Shown: positions 3,775-60,558 of the stretch, in pieces
How positions within the stretch are numbered: the stretch's first letter is position 1
Layout: the number at the start of each line of letters is the position of its first letter
DNA from: Chloroflexota bacterium
Lineage (GTDB): Bacteria > Chloroflexota > Anaerolineae > JAAYZQ01
Length of the DNA stretch: 64,000 nucleotides
Assembly: GCA_018606645.1 (NCBI GenBank)
Contig: JAGVRI010000011.1
Location: 65,346 to 129,345, forward strand
Direction: 5' to 3'
Notes under the pieces: generated by a model
The model's database searches: none
The model's input: the letters and a program-made list of their open reading frames with translations, nothing else
Told to the model about the DNA's origin: nothing
Made by a program: the position numbers and the translations under genes

Positions 3775-4005
3775 CGTAGTCCAGTACCCGCACGGCGTGA
3801 GTTCAGTCATATATTGCACTGTATATCAAACCACGCCACACCTTGCCATTGTGCACAACAGGGCGCGATGTCACGGCACCAGCCGGGCTGCAGGTATGAT
3901 GCCTTGCGTATCGGATTGTGCACCCCACTCCAAAAACTGATCGGTGACAATGCACAGCCTGGTGGCTGAACGCAATTCAGTTCTCTAACCCCGACCTGGC
4001 GCGAT

Positions 4006-5550
4006 CTACCTGCCGTTCTCCCAAATCGATAGCTTTTTTTCGTAGCCAATGAGCTTCAGGCCAGTAACGGCTGCAATGTTCGGCTCCATGGCCCGAAGGT
4101 CTTCTTCGCTCAGGTCTCGGATATCGTCATGGCCAGAAAGCATGGTCAGGATCTTGAGCTCTTCGGCGGTGGCTTTGATGAAATTGGCCAGCCGTTGACC
4201 GGCCTCGACCGGGTTGAGCCGGGCGCGCAGTACAGGATCTTGAGACGTGATGCCGTACGGACACCGGCCGACATGGCACGCCATACACGCCCGGCACCCC
4301 ATCGCGATCTCGGCCGCCGCACCAAACCCTACACCATCGGCTCCCATAGCCAAGGCTTTGTAGGCATCCAGACCGTTGCGCATTCCACCCAAGATGAAGA
4401 GTTTGACTTTGCGATGGACCCCCAGGTCTTTGAGCGCTCGCACTGCCGGCGGGATCAGGGCCACGGTTGGAATGCCCACCCCCTGAGTCACCACCGCCGG
4501 CGAAGCCCCTGTACCGCCCACGAGGCCATCTAGCGAAATGGCATCGGCTCCCGCCTCCACACAGGCCGCCACATCCTCGTACGGCCGGCTGGGTCCCAGC
4601 TTGAACAGGATCGGAACCTGATAGTCAGTAATATCGCGCAGGAAGGCAACCATGCGCTTCATGTCTTCCAGATCCTGGACATCGTAATAGCGACAAGGGG
4701 AGAGCGCATCGCTGCCGATGGGAACCCCTCGCACCGCGGCGATTTCCTCGGTGACTTTGGCTCCCAGCAGGTGACCGCCCATACCTGGCTTGGCTCCCTG
4801 GCCGATTTTAATTTCAACCCCATCGCCGGCACGAACATAGTCGGCGGAAACTCCCCATCGCCCTGTGGACCACTGGACGATCAGATAGCCACCCGGCTCC
4901 CATCGCCTGAGTGTTCGTTCTTCGTTCTCATAGCCCTTGATCAACCACGTTTCATCCCGAACCAATCCACCCTCGCCGGTGTTGCTGATGATACCCGTCA
5001 TCGCCGCGCCGATGGCCAATGCCATCCTGGCCTCCTTCGACAAGGCACCGAACGACATAGCAGGAAACAGGAACGGATAGCGCAAGCGGATCGGCCTTTC
5101 GCAAGTGTCCTCACCGATCACGACCTCCAGGTTGCACTCTTCGCGGTACTTGTCACGGGGAGCCGGAGATGCGATCTGGGAAGGCACGACGGTAATGTTA
5201 TCAAAACTGGGCCAATAGCCGCCCATCGTTCCAAAGCCGCGCAACATATACTCGCCAGTCAGCGACTTGTAATGGATCTCTTCCACTTGAGGAAAGGTCC
5301 ACGGCGAGCGGACCAGGAACTCTGACTCGGCAGGGTTAATGCGAATCGCATCCTCTGGACAGAACTCGGAGCAGATCCGACATCCAACGCAGGCATTGTA
5401 GTTCTGGACGCGCACTTGACCAAGCTGGTCAATGGCGTAGACGTCATAGGGACATACCTCAACACAGGTAGCACATTTACCCGGCATCCTGGCGTTGATG
5501 CATCGGTCCTTCATGATCGTTACGCAGAAGGTTCCGTTTACTGGTGGCAT
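4006..5550 (-). CDS. Glutamate synthase central/FMN-binding domain protein with N-terminal 2x[4Fe-4S] ferredoxin
   Basis: 514 aa; MPGKCATCVEVCPYDV, CVGCRICSEFCPEDA; FPAMSFGALSKEARMALAIGAAMTG, NTGEGG, IKIGQGAKPGMGGHL typical of GltS. Confidence 0.85.
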   Translation of the reverse strand: MPPVNGTFCVTIMKDRCINARMPGKCATCVEVCPYDVYAIDQLGQVRVQNYNACVGCRICSEFCPEDAIRINPAESEFLVRSPWTFPQVEEIHYKSLTGEYMLRGFGTMGGYWPSFDNITVVPSQIASPAPRDKYREECNLEVVIGEDTCERPIRLRYPFLFPAMSFGALSKEARMALAIGAAMTGIISNTGEGGLVRDETWLIKGYENEERTLRRWEPGGYLIVQWSTGRWGVSADYVRAGDGVEIKIGQGAKPGMGGHLLGAKVTEEIAAVRGVPIGSDALSPCRYYDVQDLEDMKRMVAFLRDITDYQVPILFKLGPSRPYEDVAACVEAGADAISLDGLVGGTGASPAVVTQGVGIPTVALIPPAVRALKDLGVHRKVKLFILGGMRNGLDAYKALAMGADGVGFGAAAEIAMGCRACMACHVGRCPYGITSQDPVLRARLNPVEAGQRLANFIKATAEELKILTMLSGHDDIRDLSEEDLRAMEPNIAAVTGLKLIGYEKKLSIWENGR

Positions 5551-50034: not shown

Positions 50035-50886
50035 ATGAAGATCGGGGTGTTGTGCTCGCGAGTGCGAGTGGAGGAAAAGCAGATCTTCACCGCCCTAGCC
50101 CAACGAGGGGTCCCATATGATCGGCTGGACCCACGGGAACTGGTCCTGGAACCCGGACGCAACGGATTGGAGAGGTACGATGCCGTTCTGGTCCGTTGTC
50201 TGAGCCATTCCCATGCCTACTATGCCACTCGTTGGTTAGAAGACCTGGGCATAAGGGCGGTCAGTTCCCATCAGGTGGTGGCAACGTGCGGCGACAAGTT
50301 GCTGACTACTGCTGCCCTGCAAGCGGCCGGACTCCCGGTTCCCCGGTCTGTGATCGCTTTTACCCCAGAGGCGGCTTTGCAGACCATCGAGAGTCTCGGC
50401 TACCCGGTTGTCTTGAAACCCCTTGTCGGATCGTGGGGCCGACTCTTGGCCCGCATCAACGACCGGGATGCAGCGGAGGCGCTGCTGGAACACAAAGCGA
50501 CCTTGGGCGGCACTCAGCACGGAGTATTCTATATCCAGGAGTATATAGACAAACCCGGCCACGATATTCGCACTCTGGTGGTTGGAGACAAGGTGGTCTG
50601 TGCGATCTACCGGCGCTCGGATCACTGGATTACGAATACAGCGCGGGGTGGAGAAGCGTTGCCCTGCCCTCTCACCCCGAAACTGGTGGAGCTGTCGCTG
50701 GCTGCAGCCCAGGCCGTCGGTGGGGGCATCGTCGCTGTCGATCTGCTTGAGAATCGGGAGGGCCAACTCCTGGTCAACGAGGTGAACCATACCCCCGAAT
50801 TCCACGGAGCCATGCAGGCCACCGAGGCCGATATTGCCGGCACAATGGTCGAATATCTGTGGCAGATTGCCAGGGGGAAGGCATGA
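50035..50886 (+). CDS. lysX: LysX/ArgX-type LysW-amino acid ligase (ATP-grasp, RimK family)
   Basis: [47 protein letters not shown]; directly follows lysW. Confidence 0.92.
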
Positions 50887-51920
50887 TCCAGGCCGCGATT
50901 GTAGGCGCTTCAGGCTATGTCGGGGGGGAGCTGCTGCGTCTGTTGCTGGCCCATCCTCAAGTTCAGGTGACACAGATCACCTCGGAAACCTATGCCGGCC
51001 AGTATGCCTATTTTGTCCACCCCAATCTGCGGGGCCGCACCGATCTCCGCTTTGGCCGTCTGGCTGACCTGAACCCCTGCGACCTGCTCTTTCTGGCCCT
51101 TCCTCATGGCCATGCCATGGAGCAGATCGAGGGGTTTGCCACCATGGCCGAGCGGATCATTGATCTGTCGGCCGATTTCCGTCTGAAGAATCCGAGTGAC
51201 TACCAGCCCTGGTACGAACGCCAACACCCGGCGCCGCACTGGCTGGACCGTTTTGTCTATGGCGTGCCAGAGCTTCATCGGGAGCAACTTGCCCAGGCGC
51301 ACTATGCCAGCGGCACGGGGTGCAATGCCATCGTCACCTTGCTAGCCTTATGGCCCCTCTATCGGCGCGGCGTAGTTCGTGAGACGGTGGTGGAGGTCAA
51401 AGTCGGTTCTTCAGAGGGAGGGCACGAGCCCAGCCCGGCTTCTCATCATCCAGAGCGATCCGGTGTCATCCGCACCTATGCGCCGGTTGGCCATCGCCAC
51501 CTGGCCGAACTGATCCAGGAACTAGGCCTGAACCCCCAGCAACCTGGACTGCACTTTTCCGTCACTTCGGTAGACATTGTGCGCGGAGCGTTGGCCACCT
51601 GTCACTGCCTGCTCCAGCATCCCCTGGACGAGCGCGATGTCTGGCAGTTCTATCGTGAGGATTATGGCGCTGAACCTTTTGTGCGCCTGGTACGGTCCAA
51701 ACGCGGTATTCATCGCTATCCCGAACCCAAGATCCTCTCCGGTTCAAACTACTGCGACATCGGGTTTGCCGTCGATCCCGCACAACAACGTTTGGTCATC
51801 ATCGCCGCCATTGATAACCTGATGAAGGGCGCGGCCGGTACGGCGGTGCAGGCCATGAACGTGATGATGGGCTGGCCAGAGACGCTGGCGCTGGACTTTC
51901 CAGGGCTTCATCCCATCTAG
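50883..51920 (+). CDS. lysY: LysW-linked N-acetyl-gamma-glutamyl-phosphate reductase-type (ArgC/LysY)
   Basis: [44 protein letters not shown]. Confidence 0.92.
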
Positions 51921-51969
51921 GGGAGCCAAGAGACTTATGTCGAGTATCTATCCGCCAAAGGAGGCAGAC

Positions 51970-52776
51970 ATGATTGTGGTGAAAATGGGGGGTAGTGATG
52001 GGGTGAACCTGGAGGCGGTATGCGCCGACATCGCCACCCTGGTGGGAGCCGGCGAGCAGATCGTCTTGGTCCATGGCGGTTCCCATGAGACCAATCTGAT
52101 CTCAGAAAAGCTGGGGGTCCCGCCCCGCTTTGTGACATCACCGTCCGGCCATGCCAGCCGGTACACTGATCGCCAGACGTTGGAGATCCTGGTCATGGTG
52201 GAGGCCGGTCGGATCAACAAACGGATCGTCGAACGGTTGCAGCAGTCTGGAGTCAACGCCATCGGGCTCTCCGGGCTAGATGGACGACTGCTCGAAGCGA
52301 AGCGAAAAGAAACCCTGCCGATCGTAGAGCACGGCAAGCGGAAGGTGCTCCATGGGGAATATAGCGGACAGATTGAGAGGGTGAATATCTCACTGCTACG
52401 GATGCTGTTGGAAACAGGGTATGTGCCGGTAGTTGCTCCATTGGCCATCAGTCACCGCCATGAAGCCTTGAATGTGGACGGTGATCGGGTTGCCGCCGCC
52501 ATCGGCTCGGCCTTAAATGCCCAGGTTGTGGTCATCCTTTCCAACGTACCTGGCCTGTTAAAGGATCCAACCAATGAAGCCAGCCTGATCTCCCAGGTGC
52601 CGCTGTCGCAAGCACAGGAGTACCTGGAGCGCTTCGCCCAAGGCCGGATGAAGCGCAAAATGCTGGGAGCCATTGACGCCCTGAAGAGTGGCGTAAAGCG
52701 GGTAATGATTGCCGACGGGCGGGTAGAGCACCCTCTGCAACGTGCCCTGGCTGGTTGGGGAACAGTGATCGAGTGA
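51970..52776 (+). CDS. lysZ: LysW-linked acetylglutamate kinase-type (ArgB/LysZ)
   Basis: [36 protein letters not shown]; start trimmed to 51970. Confidence 0.92.
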
Positions 52777-52783
52777 GGCGCCA

Positions 52784-53944
52784 ATGATGTCGAATCCTCT
52801 GATTGATCTCGAAGAGCGCTACGATAGCGGCATCTATCCCAAGCAGCCCCTGGTTCTGGTGCGGGGGGAAGGCGCACGGGTGTGGAGCCTGGACGGCCAG
52901 GAGTTCATTGACTGTGTGGGCGGCCATGGGGTGGCGAACGTCGGTCATGCCAATCCGGTAGTGATCCAGGCCATCACCGAGCAGGCCGGGCGGCTGATGC
53001 TCTGTCCGAACGGATTCTACAACGATCAACGGGCGCGTCTCCTGGCCGAATTGGTGCGCATCGCCCCGCCAGGGTTAGAGCGCGTCTTTCTCTGCAATTC
53101 GGGCTCTGAAGCGGTGGAGGCGGCGATCAAATTCGCCCGACTGAGTACGGGCCGGATCAAAATCATCGCTGCGATGCGCGGCTTTCACGGCCGGACGTGT
53201 GGTGCGTTGTCCGCTACCTGGAACAAGGCCTACCGAGAGCCGTTTGAACCGCTCCTGCCTGGTTTTGAATTTGTGCCGTATAATCGTCTCGACCGGATGG
53301 CCCAGGCCATCGATGACCAGACGGCTGCCGTTCTCCTCGAAGTCGTTCAGGGCGAAGGAGGAGTGATTCCTGGCGATGGTGACTATTTGCGCGGCGTGCA
53401 GGCCCTGTGTCAGGAGCGGGGAGCCTTGTTCATCGTGGACGAAGTGCAGACCGGTTTCGGGCGCACCGGGCGGATGTTTGCCAGCCAGCATCATAACCTG
53501 CAGCCGGATCTGATGTGCCTGTCCAAGGGCATCGCTGGAGGTTTCCCCATGGGAGCCGTGCTGATCGGTCCCAGAATCGGCAAGTTACCCGTCAAGTCCC
53601 ACGGGTCCACCTTTGGCGGCAACCCTCTGGCCTGTGCCGCTGCGCTGGCGACTATCCATTATCTCGAAACAGAAAACCTCCCAGAGAAAGCGGCCCAGGT
53701 GGGTGCACGGCTCTTGACCGGCCTGCGCTCCATTCACTCCCCTCTGGTTCGCGAAGTACGCGGGCTGGGGTTGATGGTGGGCCTGGAACTCAAGATGCCA
53801 GCCGGCCCCTACCTGGCTGCCCTCGCCGAACGGGGCGTACTGGCCCTTTCTGCCGGGACCAATGTCATTCGCTTCCTGCCGCCCCTTGTCATCACTGCTG
53901 AAGAGATCGATATGGTGCTTCAGCGCGTCGCGGAGGTCCTGTGA
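52784..53944 (+). CDS. lysJ: LysW-linked aminotransferase (ArgD/LysJ)
   Basis: Class III aminotransferase: [47 protein letters not shown]. Confidence 0.92.
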
Positions 53945-54993
53945 ACGACGAGGTCTCGTTTCTGCAAGAACTGGTGGCCATCCCCAGCCCCTCTGGGCAG
54001 GAAGATGCTGTGGCCTGCTTCTTGATCGATCAGATGGAAAGACGGGGATTCGACGCATATCGCGATGAGGCCGGCAATGTGATTGGGGTCCTGGGCCGCG
54101 CTGCTGCCGAACGGACGATTGTGCTCTTGGGTCACATGGATACCGTCCCCGGTCAGATCCCCGTACGGCGGGAAGGAGAACGTATCTACGGCCGGGGGAT
54201 CGTGGATGCCAAAGGCTCACTGGCTGCGTTTGTGCTGGCCGCAGCGCGGCTGCAGCCCTCTCTGACGAACACGCAGATCATGGTCATCGGGAGCGTGGAC
54301 GAGGAGGCTCACAGCCGGGGGGCGCGCCATCTGGTCACCACTCTGCCACCTCCCGATTACGTCATCATTGGCGAACCCAGCCACTGGCAAGGCATCACTT
54401 TGGGTTACAAAGGAAACCTGAGTTTCCACTACTGGCTCCAGCAACCGGCGGGACACAGCGCCGGCCCGTTCCCCAGTCCTGCTCAAAAGGCGATCGATCT
54501 GTGGAACCGCCTCATGGACCTGGCCGCCGAGTATAATAATGGCAGGTCAGGACACTTTACTACCCTGGATCCTGCGCTCCTGGAATTCGTTACCTTTAGC
54601 GATGGTCTCTCGGACAGGGTGGAGCTCAAGATCGCGGTGCGGCTGCCGCCGGGCCTGCCAGTTTCTGAGCTGCAACGCACCCTCCAGACCTGGTGCAATG
54701 GCGCCAAGCTTGAATTTTACCCCAGCGATCCGGCTTTTCAAGCAGATAAGCACACTCCCCTGGTGCGGGCGATGCTCCAGGCCATCCGTCAGCATGGCGG
54801 ACAACCCTCTTTCAAGCTCAAGACAGGCACGTCGGACATGAACATCGTCGGGCCGGCCTGGGGATGCCCGATCCTTGCCTACGGACCTGGAGACTCATCC
54901 CTCGACCATACTCCTCATGAGCATCTGGAGATATCGGAATTCCTGCGGGCTGTCGACGTTCTTACCCGCGCCCTGGAACTTCTGAACGGATAA
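53941..54993 (+). CDS. lysK: LysW-linked carboxypeptidase/deacylase (LysK/ArgE-type)
   Basis: M20 peptidase: [46 protein letters not shown]. Confidence 0.9.
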
Positions 54994-54994
54994 G

Positions 54995-56320
54995 TCACGG
55001 GATCAGTCGGTCAATAGCCCGCTGCACAGCCTTGCGGTCAGGTGGTAGCTCCAACGGCGGGTTCGCATACCGGGACCGCACCTCCTCCAGTGTCTGCTCG
55101 TGATAGCCCACTTTGAAGCGGGTGAATTTGAGGCCGTGGGCAGTAGAGATAACAATGACCCGATGCTCGGGTTGTATCTCCCCTCGTTCGATCAGTTTGA
55201 ACAACACCGCCAGGGCCACCCCCGTCTGGGGACAGCAGTACAGCCCGGCGCGATCGGCCCGGGCTGCCGCATCGGCCAGCTCCTGTTCAGTGGCCTGTTC
55301 CACGATCCCCTCAAAGGCGCGCAAGACCTTCACCGCCCGCTCATAGCTGACCGGCGCGCCGATCTGAATGGCGCTGGCCAGGGTCTTTCGCGCTACCACA
55401 GGCTGATACTCTTGAAAGCCGGTCAAGTAGCTCAAATACAGGGGATTGGCGTGGGCCGACTGGGCACAGGCGATGCGAGGCAGCCGGTCGATCAACCCCA
55501 ATTCGCGCATCATCAGTAACCCTTTGCCCAAGGCGCTGACATTGCCCAGGTTGCCGGCCGGAATAATGATCCAGTCAGGCACTTCCCAATCGAACTGTTG
55601 CACGATCTCGATGCCGACCGTCTTCTGACCTTCCATGCGCAATGAGTTCATCGAGTTGGCCAGATAGATGCTCTGATCGGCCGTCACCTGCTGGACGATG
55701 CGCATGCAACCATCAAAGTCCGTGTCCAGTGACAACACCACAGCCCCGTGGGCGATAGGCTGGACCAGTTGGGCCGTCGAGACCTTGCCTCGCGGCAAAA
55801 AGACGATGGCTGGAATCCCAGCCGCTGCGGCATAAGCCGCCAAAGCCGCTGAGGTATCGCCCGTCGAAGCACATGCCACCGCCCGAATGGGCTTGCCATC
55901 GGCGATCATCTGGCGCACCACCGAGATCAGGACCGTCATCCCCAAATCCTTGAAGGAGCCGGTATGACTATTCCCGCTCAGCTTGACCCACAGGTCGGGC
56001 ACTCCCACTTCCTTTCCAAGCCGCTCCGCCCAAAAACAGTTGGTATGCCCTTCATACATCGAAACCACGTTCTGGTTCTCTACCTGGGGGCAGACCCACT
56101 CTTTTTTCCCCCATACGCCGCTGCCATAGGGCCATTCGTTCGTCCGCGTCCGCTGATCAAACAACGCCTTCCACTCCGTCGGGCTGCGGTCCTTCAGCGC
56201 TTCCACATCGTGCTCCACGTCCAGCAGGCCGCCACACTCCTCGCACTGATAGATGACATCATAGATGGAATAGCGGCGGCCACATCCCCGAATGCATTCT
56301 AGCCAGCTATGGTAGCTCAT
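54995..56320 (-). CDS. thrC: Threonine synthase
   Basis: Zn-ribbon N-terminus, [38 protein letters not shown]. Confidence 0.93.
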
Positions 56321-56359: not shown

Positions 56360-57769
56360 TCAGTTCTCCAGAATCACCTGGCTATGGATCTGCCGGACGG
56401 CCTCAACGGCAAGCTCACTGCTGACGACCAGGGAAATGCTGCATTCCGAAGAACCCTGGGCAATGGCAATCACGTTGATGCCAGCCCGGCCCAACGCCCC
56501 AAAGATGCGGGCCGCAACCCCTGGTGTGCTCCGGATGCCGGCGCCTACTGCGGTGACGATCACCACATTGTCCAGGGACCACACCCGGTTGATGTCCCGT
56601 CGCGCCAGCTCCAGAGCCATTTCCTTCTCGATGGCGTGAACGACTGACGATACCGCCTGAGTCGGAAGTACGAAACAGATCGATTGTTCCGAAGACGCCT
56701 GGGAGATCATCAACACACTGGCCCCTTGACTGGCTACCGCCGCAAACGTGCGAGCGGCAATGCCGGGCACGCCCATCATCCCCCGACCTTCAACGGTCAC
56801 CAGGCTCATCCCTTGAATGGCAGTGACTGCCTTGATGGCGCCGGGCGAACTCTCGAGTTCCGGCACGATACGAGTTCCTGGACAGGACGGGTTGAACGTG
56901 TTTTTCACCCACAGCGGGATGCCTCGCTCAATGACCGGCCAGATGGTGCGGGGGTGCAGAACTTTGGCCCCAAAATACGCCAGTTCGCTGACTTCGCTTG
57001 CGGACAGAGCAGGGATAACCCGCGCTTCAGGCACGAGCCGCGGATCGGCGGTCATGACGCCATCCACATCCGTCCAGATCCATACCTCATCCGCATCCAG
57101 GCAGGAACCGAGGATGGACGCGCTGTAATCGCTGCCGCCTCGTCCTAGTGTGGTCGTCACGCCCTGTTCTGTCGCCCCAATGAAGCCGGTCACCACCGGG
57201 ATATTCTGGCTGTCCATCAAGGGGACCAGGGACGCCAACACCCGGTCGCGAGTCTTGTCCATCAGCGGCACGGCATTTTGGAATGTATCATCGGTGACAA
57301 TCAGTTCCGTCGCATCGACCGCTTCGCTTCGGAGGCTATGTTTCCGCAGCAATGCAGCCATGATACGGGCATTGATCCGTTCTCCCAGAGACGTAATTGC
57401 ATCCATAGCCCGTGGCGTGACCTCGCCCAAGATATGGACGCTCCGACAGAACGCCGCAAACTCGTCCAGATACTCATCCACCATCGCCAGCAGGCGTGCT
57501 CTCTCTCCGTCTGGGCTGAACAAAGAAGCCACGGTTCCGTAGTGGCGCGCGCGAAGATCGGTGACGATGGCACGATAGGTCTGATCGTCGCCGGCCGCAG
57601 CCGTAACTGCCCCGCGCGTCAAGGCATCGGTCACGCCATTCATCGCCGAGACAACCACTACCACTCGGTCCCAGCGCTGGGACTGTTCCAGGATGATGAG
57701 AGCAGCTTGAGCGAGTGCCTCAGGGCTGCCTACCGATGTGCCGCCGAATTTCATCGTCAGAAGCGTCAT
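56360..57769 (-). CDS. lysC: Aspartate kinase
   Basis: [45 protein letters not shown]-terminal ACT-like region. Confidence 0.94.
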
Positions 57770-58794
57770 CGATCCCCTCCCAATAGTTCTCGGCCCACCG
57801 CGCGGGCCACGGCTCGCAATTCCTTCATCAGTTGGGCAAACGACCCCGGAGTAAGAGACTGAGTCCCCTCAGACAGGGCTTGATTTGGATGAGGATGAAC
57901 CTCGACCAATAACCCATCAGCGCCAGCCGCCACCGCAGCCTTGGCAACAGCCCCGACCAACTCCCAACGTCCGGTGCTATCACTCGGGTCTACAATCACT
58001 GGGAGGTGACTCAATTGCTTCAAGAGCGGCACCGCATTGATATCGAGAGTGCTGCGGGTAGACGGCTCAAAGGTGCGGATCCCGCGTTCACACAGCATCA
58101 CCCGCTCGTTCCCGTGAGACAGGATATACTCCGCCGACATCAACAGCTCTTCTACAGTGGACATCATCCCGCGCGTCAGCAATACCGGCCGTTGCGCTTC
58201 GCCCACCGCGTGCAACAGGGCATAGTTCTGCATCTCCTGCGCCCCGATCTGCAGGACATCGGCATAGGTCGCCATCAGGGGCACCAACTCCGGGGTGTTT
58301 ACCTCAGCCACAAACGGCAAGCCGGTTTCCTCCCGGGCCGCAGCCAGAATCCGCAGTTCTTCTTCGATCGCACCTTGAAACCTGGACACGGGGGCGCCCG
58401 GTTGGAACGTGCCTCCGCGCAGTAGCTGCGCCCCTGCCTCTTTGACCATCCACGCCGCTTCCAGAAACGACTCATAGCCTTCCACCGCACCAGGGCCAGC
58501 CGCAACCACCACTTGTTTGCCCCCAACCCGGACACCATTGACGGAGACGATCGTATCCTGCGGATGGAACTCCCGGCTGGCCAGCTTGAACGGTTGCAGC
58601 ACAGGCACCGTTCGTTCTACGCCTTCCATTCGTTCAATCTGCGCTCGATCGATGGGCCGTCCATTGCCGATGATACCCAGAACGGTTCGTTCGCTCCCTT
58701 CTGAAAGATGTACCTGAACCCCCTGCTGCTCAAGCCGGGCGATGACATTCACAATCTGGGACCGTGTGGCCCCTTGCTTCATGATCACGATCAT
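57766..58794 (-). CDS. aroF: 3-deoxy-7-phosphoheptulonate synthase (AroF/type I-beta)
   Basis: [77 protein letters not shown]. Confidence 0.93.
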
Positions 58795-58797
58795 CGG

Positions 58798-59664
58798 TCA
58801 AGCCTCCTGGACTATCCCCTTGCCGATCGCACGGTCCTCCGGAAGCGGCGTCGTTGCCGCCGGATACGAGCCCAGGAGCTTGACAAAAGACGAACGGCGC
58901 AGGAGCCCCATCAACGCTGCCTCGCATTCCGGATCCTTGCAGTGGCCTTCAAAGTCCAAATAGAAGATATATTGCCACGGTCGGTTCACACGCGGCCTCG
59001 ATTCCAGCTTGGTCAGGTTGATCCGGCGCTTGGCAAACTCACCGAGACACTCATACAGTGCACCCGGCTGATGACGCGTACAAAACACCACTGACGTCTT
59101 GTTCCGCTGCGCACGCGGTGGATCTTCCCGACTAAGAATGAAGAATCGAGTATAGTTGTAAAACGAGTCCTCAATGCCATAATCCAGCTCAACCAACCCA
59201 TATAGCTGACCAGCCAGGCGGCTGGCAATGACCGCCACCCCTGGTTCAGGTGATCTGGCCAGTTCGCGAGCGCTCCCGGCAGTGTCGTAGGTGGTTTCCG
59301 GAACCCAGCCTTGGTTCCGGATGTACCGTTCGCACTGCGCCAGGGCATGGGGATGCGAACGAACGCGTCGGATGTCCACCAAAGAACTGCCCGGTGGAGC
59401 AAGCAGGGCATGACGTACTCGCAAGATGGCTTCTCCCCACACCCGCAGATCGTGGTCGAGCAGCAGATCGTACGCCTGATTGATCGAACCAGCGGTCGAG
59501 TTTTCCACCGGCAATGCCGCGTAATCCGCATCCCCCAGCTCAACGACCTCAAAAAGGTCTTCAAAATGACGACACGGAAGGGTTTCTACCTCCTGACCAA
59601 AGAACTGAAAAATGGCTTCCTCAGAATAGGCACCTCGTTCACCTTGGAATGCGATCGTGGGCAT
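58798..59664 (-). CDS. pheA: Prephenate dehydratase
   Basis: MPTIAFQGERGAYSEEAIFQFFG; LPVENSTAGSINQAYDLL; C-terminal ACT region; start trimmed to 59664. Confidence 0.94.
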   Translation of the reverse strand: MPTIAFQGERGAYSEEAIFQFFGQEVETLPCRHFEDLFEVVELGDADYAALPVENSTAGSINQAYDLLLDHDLRVWGEAILRVRHALLAPPGSSLVDIRRVRSHPHALAQCERYIRNQGWVPETTYDTAGSARELARSPEPGVAVIASRLAGQLYGLVELDYGIEDSFYNYTRFFILSREDPPRAQRNKTSVVFCTRHQPGALYECLGEFAKRRINLTKLESRPRVNRPWQYIFYLDFEGHCKDPECEAALMGLLRRSSFVKLLGSYPAATTPLPEDRAIGKGIVQEA

Positions 59665-59686: not shown

Positions 59687-59728
59687 AAAAAAACAGCGAG
59701 CGTGGAATTGGTTGCTCCACGCTCGCTG
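59687..59728 (-). terminator. phe/thr attenuator terminator
   Basis: Minus strand cagcgagcgtgga-N9-tccacgctcgctg followed by TTTTTTT, just upstream of pheA. Confidence 0.95.
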
Positions 59729-59755
59729 AGTTCTTTTCGCTCGATCAGGCTGCTG

Positions 59756-59926
59756 TCAAGAACCTCCCCCTCGCGCGAAGCAACCGCCCCGCGTGGTGGT
59801 AAAAGTGAAAGTGGAGAAGCAGCCTGCAAAAAGCTCTCGACCGAGCAGGCGGGACGAGCCGCTGCCTTGCACGACATTGGCAAACAAACTGCTCGTTCGT
59901 CGATCGAACCGGCTCAGATCAACCAT
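59756..59926 (-). CDS. phe/thr operon leader peptide MVDLSRFDRRTSSLFANVVQGSGSSRLLGRELFAGCFSTFTFTTTRGGCFARGGGS
   Basis: Downstream Met of the 83-aa ORF 59756..60007; FAGCFSTFTFTTT codon run; SD AAGGG; lies between promoter and attenuator terminator. Confidence 0.8.
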   Translation of the reverse strand: MVDLSRFDRRTSSLFANVVQGSGSSRLLGRELFAGCFSTFTFTTTRGGCFARGGGS

Positions 59927-59953
59927 GCTCCCGCCCTTGTCGAAAGTGTCAGC

Positions 59954-59982
59954 ATGATAGCACGAAACGGAAAATGTGTCAA
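59954..59982 (-). promoter_or_regulatory. phe/thr operon promoter (TTGACA-N17-TATCAT)
   Basis: -35 59977-59982, -10 59954-59959 on the minus strand. Confidence 0.82.
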
Positions 59983-60087: not shown

Positions 60088-60558
60088 ATGCTCAAAGAAG
60101 GTACATTGGCTCCGGATTTCACCCTGCCGTCCGACGGGGGTGGAGAAGTCACATTATCCCAATATCGAGGGAAAAAGGTCGTGCTTTACTTCTACCCCAA
60201 GGATCACACTCCGGGCTGTACGACGGAGGCGTGTGGATTTCGAGATAGCCATGCTGAAATCCTGGCCGCGGGGGCAGTGGTCCTGGGCGTCAGTCCAGAC
60301 CCGGTTAAATCCCATGACAAGTTCAAACTCCAGTTCAACCTGCCTTTTGCTCTTCTGAGTGATCCCGACCACCGCGTGGCTCAAATGTATGGCGCCTGGG
60401 GCGAGAAAAAGATGTATGGCAAAACGGCCATGGGCATCATTCGCTCTACCTTCATCATTGACGAGGAAGGCAAAATCATCAAGGTCTTTCCCAAAGTCAC
60501 TCCTGAAGGACACAGCGAACAGGTCCTTGCGGTTCTGAAAGCCTCCACTCCCTCCTGA
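60088..60558 (+). CDS. bcp: Peroxiredoxin, thioredoxin-dependent thiol peroxidase
   Basis: LKEGTLAPDFTLPSDGG, VVLYFYPKDHTPGCTTEACGFRD. Confidence 0.95.
   Translation: MLKEGTLAPDFTLPSDGGGEVTLSQYRGKKVVLYFYPKDHTPGCTTEACGFRDSHAEILAAGAVVLGVSPDPVKSHDKFKLQFNLPFALLSDPDHRVAQMYGAWGEKKMYGKTAMGIIRSTFIIDEEGKIIKVFPKVTPEGHSEQVLAVLKASTPS

Follow-up and report, generated by a model that had tools for sequence, protein, structure and literature searches.

A predicted phenylalanine- and threonine-sensing variant within a class-wide family of leader-peptide attenuators in Anaerolineae

Which amino acids govern an operon that joins genes of the phenylalanine and threonine branches? The question arises in a Chloroflexota bacterium of the class Anaerolineae (contig JAGVRI010000011.1), in a 64,000-nucleotide stretch of DNA, hereafter the window, where a first-pass annotation had placed a Phe/Thr-sensing leader peptide ahead of genes for prephenate dehydratase, DAHP synthase, aspartate kinase and threonine synthase. 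Its coordinates and sequence agree with the window DNA, and family scans bore out the four genes (Table 1). They are ordered pheA-aroF-lysC-thrC, with neither aroH nor tyrA, and are tightly packed, with 3 nt between pheA and aroF, an overlap of lysC with the aroF stop, and 39 nt between lysC and thrC. LysW-type lysine genes (lysX, argC/lysY-like, lysZ, lysJ and lysK; 50035-54993, plus strand) converge on the thrC end, and thus the lysC of this operon probably serves threonine rather than lysine supply. Elsewhere in the window, a TPP riboswitch lies at 15975-16103 on the plus strand (RF00059, 67.5 bits).

Table 1. Features of the leader and its operon, in window positions
Feature	Position	Strand	Basis
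Promoter, TTGACA-17-TATCAT, TG ahead of -10	59954..59982	minus	consensus scan, 11/12 matches
Leader peptide ORF, 56 codons, MVDLSRFDRRTSSLFANVVQGSGSSRLLGRELFAGCFSTFTFTTTRGGCFARGGGS	59756..59926	minus	sole common-start frame through the run, ending before the terminator
Control codons 32-45, L-F-A-G-C-F-S-T-F-T-F-T-T-T	59792..59833	minus	sequence; stall scan
Region 1, caggctgc, 5' side of protector stem	59819..59826	minus	minimum-energy fold; pairs with 59753-59746
Region 2 of antiterminator, GGTTGCTTCGCGC	59773..59785	minus	2:3 pairing p=0.003; family covariation
gcagcctg, 3' side of protector stem	59746..59753	minus	minimum-energy fold
Region 3, GCGTGGAGCAACC, common to antiterminator and terminator	59710..59722	minus	pairing test; covariation
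Intrinsic terminator (3:4), 14-bp stem, 7-nt loop, T-run	59687..59728	minus	sequence scan and family covariation
pheA, prephenate dehydratase	58798..59664	minus	family scans; good ribosome binding site, GGGAGGG, 5 nt upstream of ATG
aroF-type DAHP synthase	57766..58794	minus	family scans
lysC, aspartate kinase with ACT domains	56360..57769	minus	family scans; start overlaps aroF stop
thrC, threonine synthase	54995..56320	minus	family scans
Divergent prxQ, thiol peroxidase	60088..60558	plus	gene scan

By sequence scan, the promoter is of a strong sigma-70 type, and the upstream DNA of relatives carries the same promoter type ahead of other family members. Comparison of three frames, with starts chosen among ATG, GTG and TTG, gave a leader that runs from the ATG at 59926 to the TGA at 59758-59756 on the minus strand. 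It is a short ORF, predicted to be translated, with a regulatory codon run between the promoter and the structural gene. The 14 codons of this run include four Phe, five Thr and no Tyr, the Phe and Thr counts being those originally reported. The ribosome binding site of the leader is poorly spaced, with GGGAG one base ahead of the ATG, and the arrangement in G058 is similar. Toward its C-terminus the peptide resembles the leaders of G048 (...SGRCFAPGRFCQK) and G001 (...TGRCFALRRVCQK). Ahead of the first structural gene stands the terminator CAGCGAGCGTGGAG-CAACCAA-TTCCACGCTCGCTG-T7 (59728-59694, minus strand), the stem of which is perfect.

The alternative pairings proposed for this leader could be reproduced. 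Region 2 pairs with the 5' arm and loop of the terminator over exactly 13 positions, two of them G-U, and none of 300 shuffles equalled this pairing (p=0.003). When the leader is folded to minimum energy (whole-leader z=-5.7), caggctgc does pair with gcagcctg. Extending the 2:3 test, which is independent of the covariance model R1 described below, to 44 curated leaders revealed 36 in which the pairing beats shuffles (p<0.05 each; combined p about 5e-38). The 1:2 helix beside region 2 reached p<0.05 in only 15 of the 44 (combined p 7e-8), and we thus do not count the protector stem among the conserved features of the family. Covariation was computed on an alignment of 33 of the curated leaders. 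In the 2:3 helix 25 cells changed on both sides, compared with 7.9 in shuffles, and in the 3:4 helix 40 compared with 13.1 (0/500 shuffles in each case). The shuffle control leaves sequence relatedness in; slid controls, which remove it in part, scored far lower than the real helix for 2:3. The antiterminator shares the 5' arm of the terminator and the two are mutually exclusive, both with compensatory changes. Given this exclusivity, an attenuator should show covariation in both helices, as is the case here, and this confirms the attenuator anatomy put forward for the locus.

To follow the effect of a ribosome on this switch, the RNA freed by a ribosome at each codon was folded through the end of region 3, with upstream RNA ignored. 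In the window leader, the probability of 2:3 pairing is 0 when no ribosome is present and close to 0 when one sits upstream of the run. It climbs to 0.43 at Leu32 and 0.55 at the first Phe and stays at 0.98-1.0 from Ala34 through the second-last Thr. It then falls, to 0.75 at the last Thr and 0.22 at the Arg that follows, and reaches 0 shortly thereafter. The productive stall region therefore covers all Phe and Thr codons of the run, and stalling at these regulatory codons frees the antiterminator in silico. A Thr leader found before lysC..thrC in the related genome G001 behaves in the same way, which indicates that both codon kinds are placed where stalling would matter. In three other leaders (L034, L040 and L048, from G007, G020 and G057), the 2:3 helix forms even without a ribosome in the simple fold model; thus the protector state is not general.

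Relatives were found by a PheA search, after which their upstream DNA was read; the records are mostly named Anaerolineae or Chloroflexi. Most PheA relatives carry the same design. Its usual form is a Phe/Tyr-rich leader before aroH-pheA-aroF-tyrA, GVYFYYYYFPF and RAFFFAYYFYAYFYG being examples of its runs. In the 44 curated leaders, the distance to the terminator is about 90-125 nt from the beginning of the codon run and 17-38 nt from the leader stop. The covariance model R1, which spans region 2 to the terminator and was built from 33 sequences, matches 168 of 397 genomes of the class at E<=0.001. The comparative genomics suggested for this leader thus recovered the same architecture across the class, together with Thr enrichment where lysC-thrC follows. 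The window itself matches at E=1e-15, a partly circular value since it is one of the 33 model sequences. Outside the class, five matches at E<=1e-5 were obtained among 261 genomes across the phylum, all with aroH-aroF downstream and with leader runs including SAYYFWFWYF and HSFYRYFYYF. Against Rfam 15, no family, the proteobacterial Phe and Thr leaders included, reached its gathering threshold at this element, either in the window or in sampled members. The T-box model (RF00230) gave no match at the window, and the same model does detect a T-box in G311. We regard these elements as a large, class-wide set of ribosome-mediated attenuators in Anaerolineae, apparently undescribed. Tyr codons are usual, though not universal, in the runs of this family; having none, the window leader is classed as a variant. 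This refines the first-pass reading: the scaffold ordinarily carries Phe and Tyr codons, and the surprise is Thr in the place of Tyr.

If the run is the sensor, its codons should follow the genes behind it. We counted codons over a fixed 23-codon region in 83 leaders with their downstream genes listed, picking the leader frame by its Phe plus Tyr count; in the window and in the Thr leader of G001, Thr entered this count as well. With phylogeny ignored, Phe codons are more frequent with pheA (mean 4.2 vs 2.8, p=0.010), Tyr codons with tyrA (4.1 vs 2.7, p=0.006) and Thr codons with lysC plus thrC (5.0 vs 0.64, p=0.0008, n=3). The highest Thr counts belong to the G001 lysC leader (6), the window (5), G007 (4) and G074 (4), the other 79 having at most 3 (mean 0.66). 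The three leaders known to precede lysC-thrC thus hold the top three Thr counts, the third being tied; a few others have up to 3 Thr with no lysC-thrC found nearby. The same correspondence is seen in individual loci. Leaders of tyrS (L131, L136, L148 and L158) are Tyr-rich with 0 or 1 Phe, G074 has FAYYYYYYGP before aroH-tyrA, and a leader without Tyr in G251 stands at a pheA-aroF locus that likewise shows no tyrA. In the window, too, the regulatory codons match the products of the operon.

Several further leaders deserve description. Two of the Tyr leaders, L131 and L158 (G008:C550 and G043:C32), precede an unusual protein of about 670 residues, which from its sequence we take to combine an N-terminal B3/B4 tRNA-editing-type domain with a tyrosyl-tRNA synthetase-like part. 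In G001, the leader QQCHMHHPHARGAP (L165; G001:C111:42176-42281, minus strand) is rich in His and has a GCGTGG-type terminator in the style of the family; the gene directly after it is presumably hisS, for histidyl-tRNA synthetase, as judged by its sequence. A weaker R1 match (E=4e-4) in G074 (L169; G074:C118:750-874, minus strand) comprises a Gln/Asn-run leader ORF, LPYQNNNQNNNRYPHVV, a terminator and an antiterminator recognized by eye, CCTCACGTC with GGCGTGAGG. It lies about 70 nt upstream of a tRNA-Lys gene, with tRNA-Asn and tRNA-Gln further on, and could attenuate this tRNA cluster in response to Asn/Gln. A pattern search of 59 relatives gave no convincing second case of this kind.

As to the threonine codons, the set includes just one further genome from the family to which the window belongs, G001. 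There, lysC and thrC make up an operon apart, which has a Thr leader, SYTTTTGTPATGRCFALRRVCQK (run SYTTTTGTPATG), divergent from prxQ, the same gene as at the window leader, and pheA-aroF has a Phe/Tyr leader. In the window, pheA-aroF sits between the prxQ-divergent leader position and lysC-thrC. The tyrA gene of the window genome is found on another contig, with aroH-aroF, behind an FFFYYY leader. This second attenuator (L123; G000:C4:230150-230268, minus strand), with the leader SSWSFFFYYYAQSFG, stands before aroH, DAHP synthase and tyrA. The window operon without tyrA thus has a leader without Tyr, and its lysC-thrC is accompanied by five Thr codons.

A second candidate fusion occurs in G007. 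Downstream of its aroH-pheA-aroF-tyrA come lysC and thrC in the same orientation, and codons for Tyr, Phe and Thr are all present in the leader (LTYIYYFTYFTT). Between tyrA and lysC, however, there are 284 nt that include an inverted repeat, which makes co-transcription of lysC uncertain there. This long repeat (GTAGTGACGACTTTAGTCG...CGACTAAAGTCGCTACTAC; L034, about 3900-4190) is possibly a mobile one. A similar run (LTYNYYFYFTYMTT) is present in G074, a member of that genus, on a contig that ends after aroF. The window and G007 have codon runs (TTC ACT [TAT] TTT ACC) that may go back to a common ancestor, so these two cases are not fully independent. In G311, hom-lysC..thrC is preceded by the Rfam T-box (L097:11561-11790, minus strand), with ACC, for Thr, aligned at the specifier. 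Together with the Thr leaders, it indicates that threonine control of lysC..thrC genes recurs by different means. Apart from this T-box, the loci examined in further relatives had no Thr-type leader upstream of lysC. In families f29 and f36, where thrC and pheA are neighbours, the loci examined had no attenuator upstream of thrC. Among the matches listed for the class, no fused pheA-lysC operon was seen beyond the window genome and G007.

Could the leader be read otherwise? In another frame (LLLHFHFYHHAGRLLRARGRFLTAA) it would encode a His/Phe/Tyr run, again with a plausibly placed stop and with a tail like the GRLLHA tail of the G007 type. That frame, HFHFYHH through the run, was ruled out, as it has no ATG, GTG or TTG start and offers only the CTG at 59822; the frame used here agrees with the tails of the closest relatives (SGRCFAPG and TGRCFAL), leaving the other barely credible. 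Leader translation being a prediction, one might also suppose a real terminator controlled by another ligand or a protein, or one that terminates constitutively and partially. We consider this very improbable, given the lack of an Rfam match, the covariation of both alternative helices, and a codon run whose position relative to the hairpins is conserved while its content varies with the operon.

The threonine codons might instead be filler left after the loss of Tyr, with no regulatory role, in an attenuator that senses Phe only. Four Phe codons alone would suffice, Thr is not the usual signal of a pheA leader, and isolated Thr codons do stand beside Phe runs elsewhere (two each in L053, L054 and L056). 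Five Thr codons far exceed the mean of the other leaders, however, and high counts coincide with lysC-thrC; moreover, G001 carries a Thr-only run on the same scaffold before lysC..thrC, the last three Thr codons of the window fall within the productive stall region, and the G311 T-box again couples these genes to Thr. A Phe-only attenuator is therefore unlikely. On comparative grounds, it appears close to certain that the window element is a ribosome-mediated attenuator, and a response to Phe is very likely, as predicted. A response to Thr as well is likely, because Thr codons accompany Thr genes and fall within the productive region; the Thr-linked leaders number three, two of them perhaps of shared descent. 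The dual sensing first proposed is well supported in comparative terms by the codon–operon match and the Thr-only paralogue, and also by the stall scan, its threonine half being the more tentative.

In all, a ribosome-mediated transcription attenuator sensing both Phe and Thr is the best explanation and a likely one, and we infer stalling, readthrough and the response to each amino acid in the following putative model. Transcription would start near 59947, with a ribosome trailing RNA polymerase along the leader ORF. A shortage of charged tRNA-Phe or tRNA-Thr would stall the ribosome within codons 33-45, breaking the protector stem and freeing region 2; 2:3 would then pair, block the terminator and allow transcription of pheA-aroF-lysC-thrC. 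With both amino acids plentiful, the ribosome would pass region 2, so that 3:4 pairs and transcription terminates. In the absence of a ribosome, region 2 would be held in the leader fold, leading to termination as well. The leader belongs to the class-wide Phe/Tyr scaffold, with Thr standing where relatives have Tyr, and its operon lacks tyrA and is fused with lysC-thrC.

Multivalent leaders as such are already known. As is generally known, the thr operon leader of Escherichia coli, thrL, has Thr and Ile codons, and it resembles the window in being a two-amino-acid leader with an intrinsic terminator and the same stalling logic. It joins amino acids of one pathway family, whereas the window, which matches no Rfam leader family, joins the aromatic and aspartate branches over a fused operon. 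The equally familiar pheL/pheA attenuator of E. coli likewise has a Phe codon run before prephenate dehydratase, but differs in sequence and arrangement. In the present elements region 2 falls within the leader ORF and the stop precedes the terminator by the 17-38 nt given for the curated set, and in the window Thr codons are added. Closer to home, the homologous Phe/Tyr leader of aroH-pheA-aroF-tyrA in Anaerolineae shares scaffold, region 2, terminator and position with the window, but not its Thr-for-Tyr run or its lysC-thrC in place of aroH and tyrA. The G001 Thr leader (tail TGRCFAL) shares the scaffold and the divergent prxQ; its run, in contrast, is Thr only, without Phe. The G311 T-box controls the same threonine genes, yet binds uncharged tRNA directly, without a leader peptide. 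In Acholeplasma, the uORFC-13-1 motif, a Phe-coding upstream ORF with a terminator, was proposed before the DAHP synthase gene aroF (PMC8632094); it comes from another phylum, differs in sequence and concerns a single amino acid. Our search of the open literature, which covered few subscription journals, found nothing relevant on Chloroflexota attenuators or Phe/Thr leaders. The earlier remark that no described Phe+Thr leader was known to its author is in line with this, although absence from open papers is no proof of novelty. The Phe and Thr combination and the attenuator family appear to be new.

In summary, Chloroflexota probably harbor a phylum-wide, undescribed attenuator family whose codon run is rewritten per operon (Phe/Tyr, Tyr, Thr or His), the window being a natural two-input Phe and Thr version associated with operon fusion. 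The system is directly amenable to reporter fusions, and its comparative set of more than 150 genomes comes from a phylum for which we found no leader-peptide attenuators described in the open literature. It would add a two-input leader uniting two unrelated pathways, and offers a natural experiment in the reprogramming of a regulatory RNA, in which the structure is kept constant and the sensed amino acids follow the operon.
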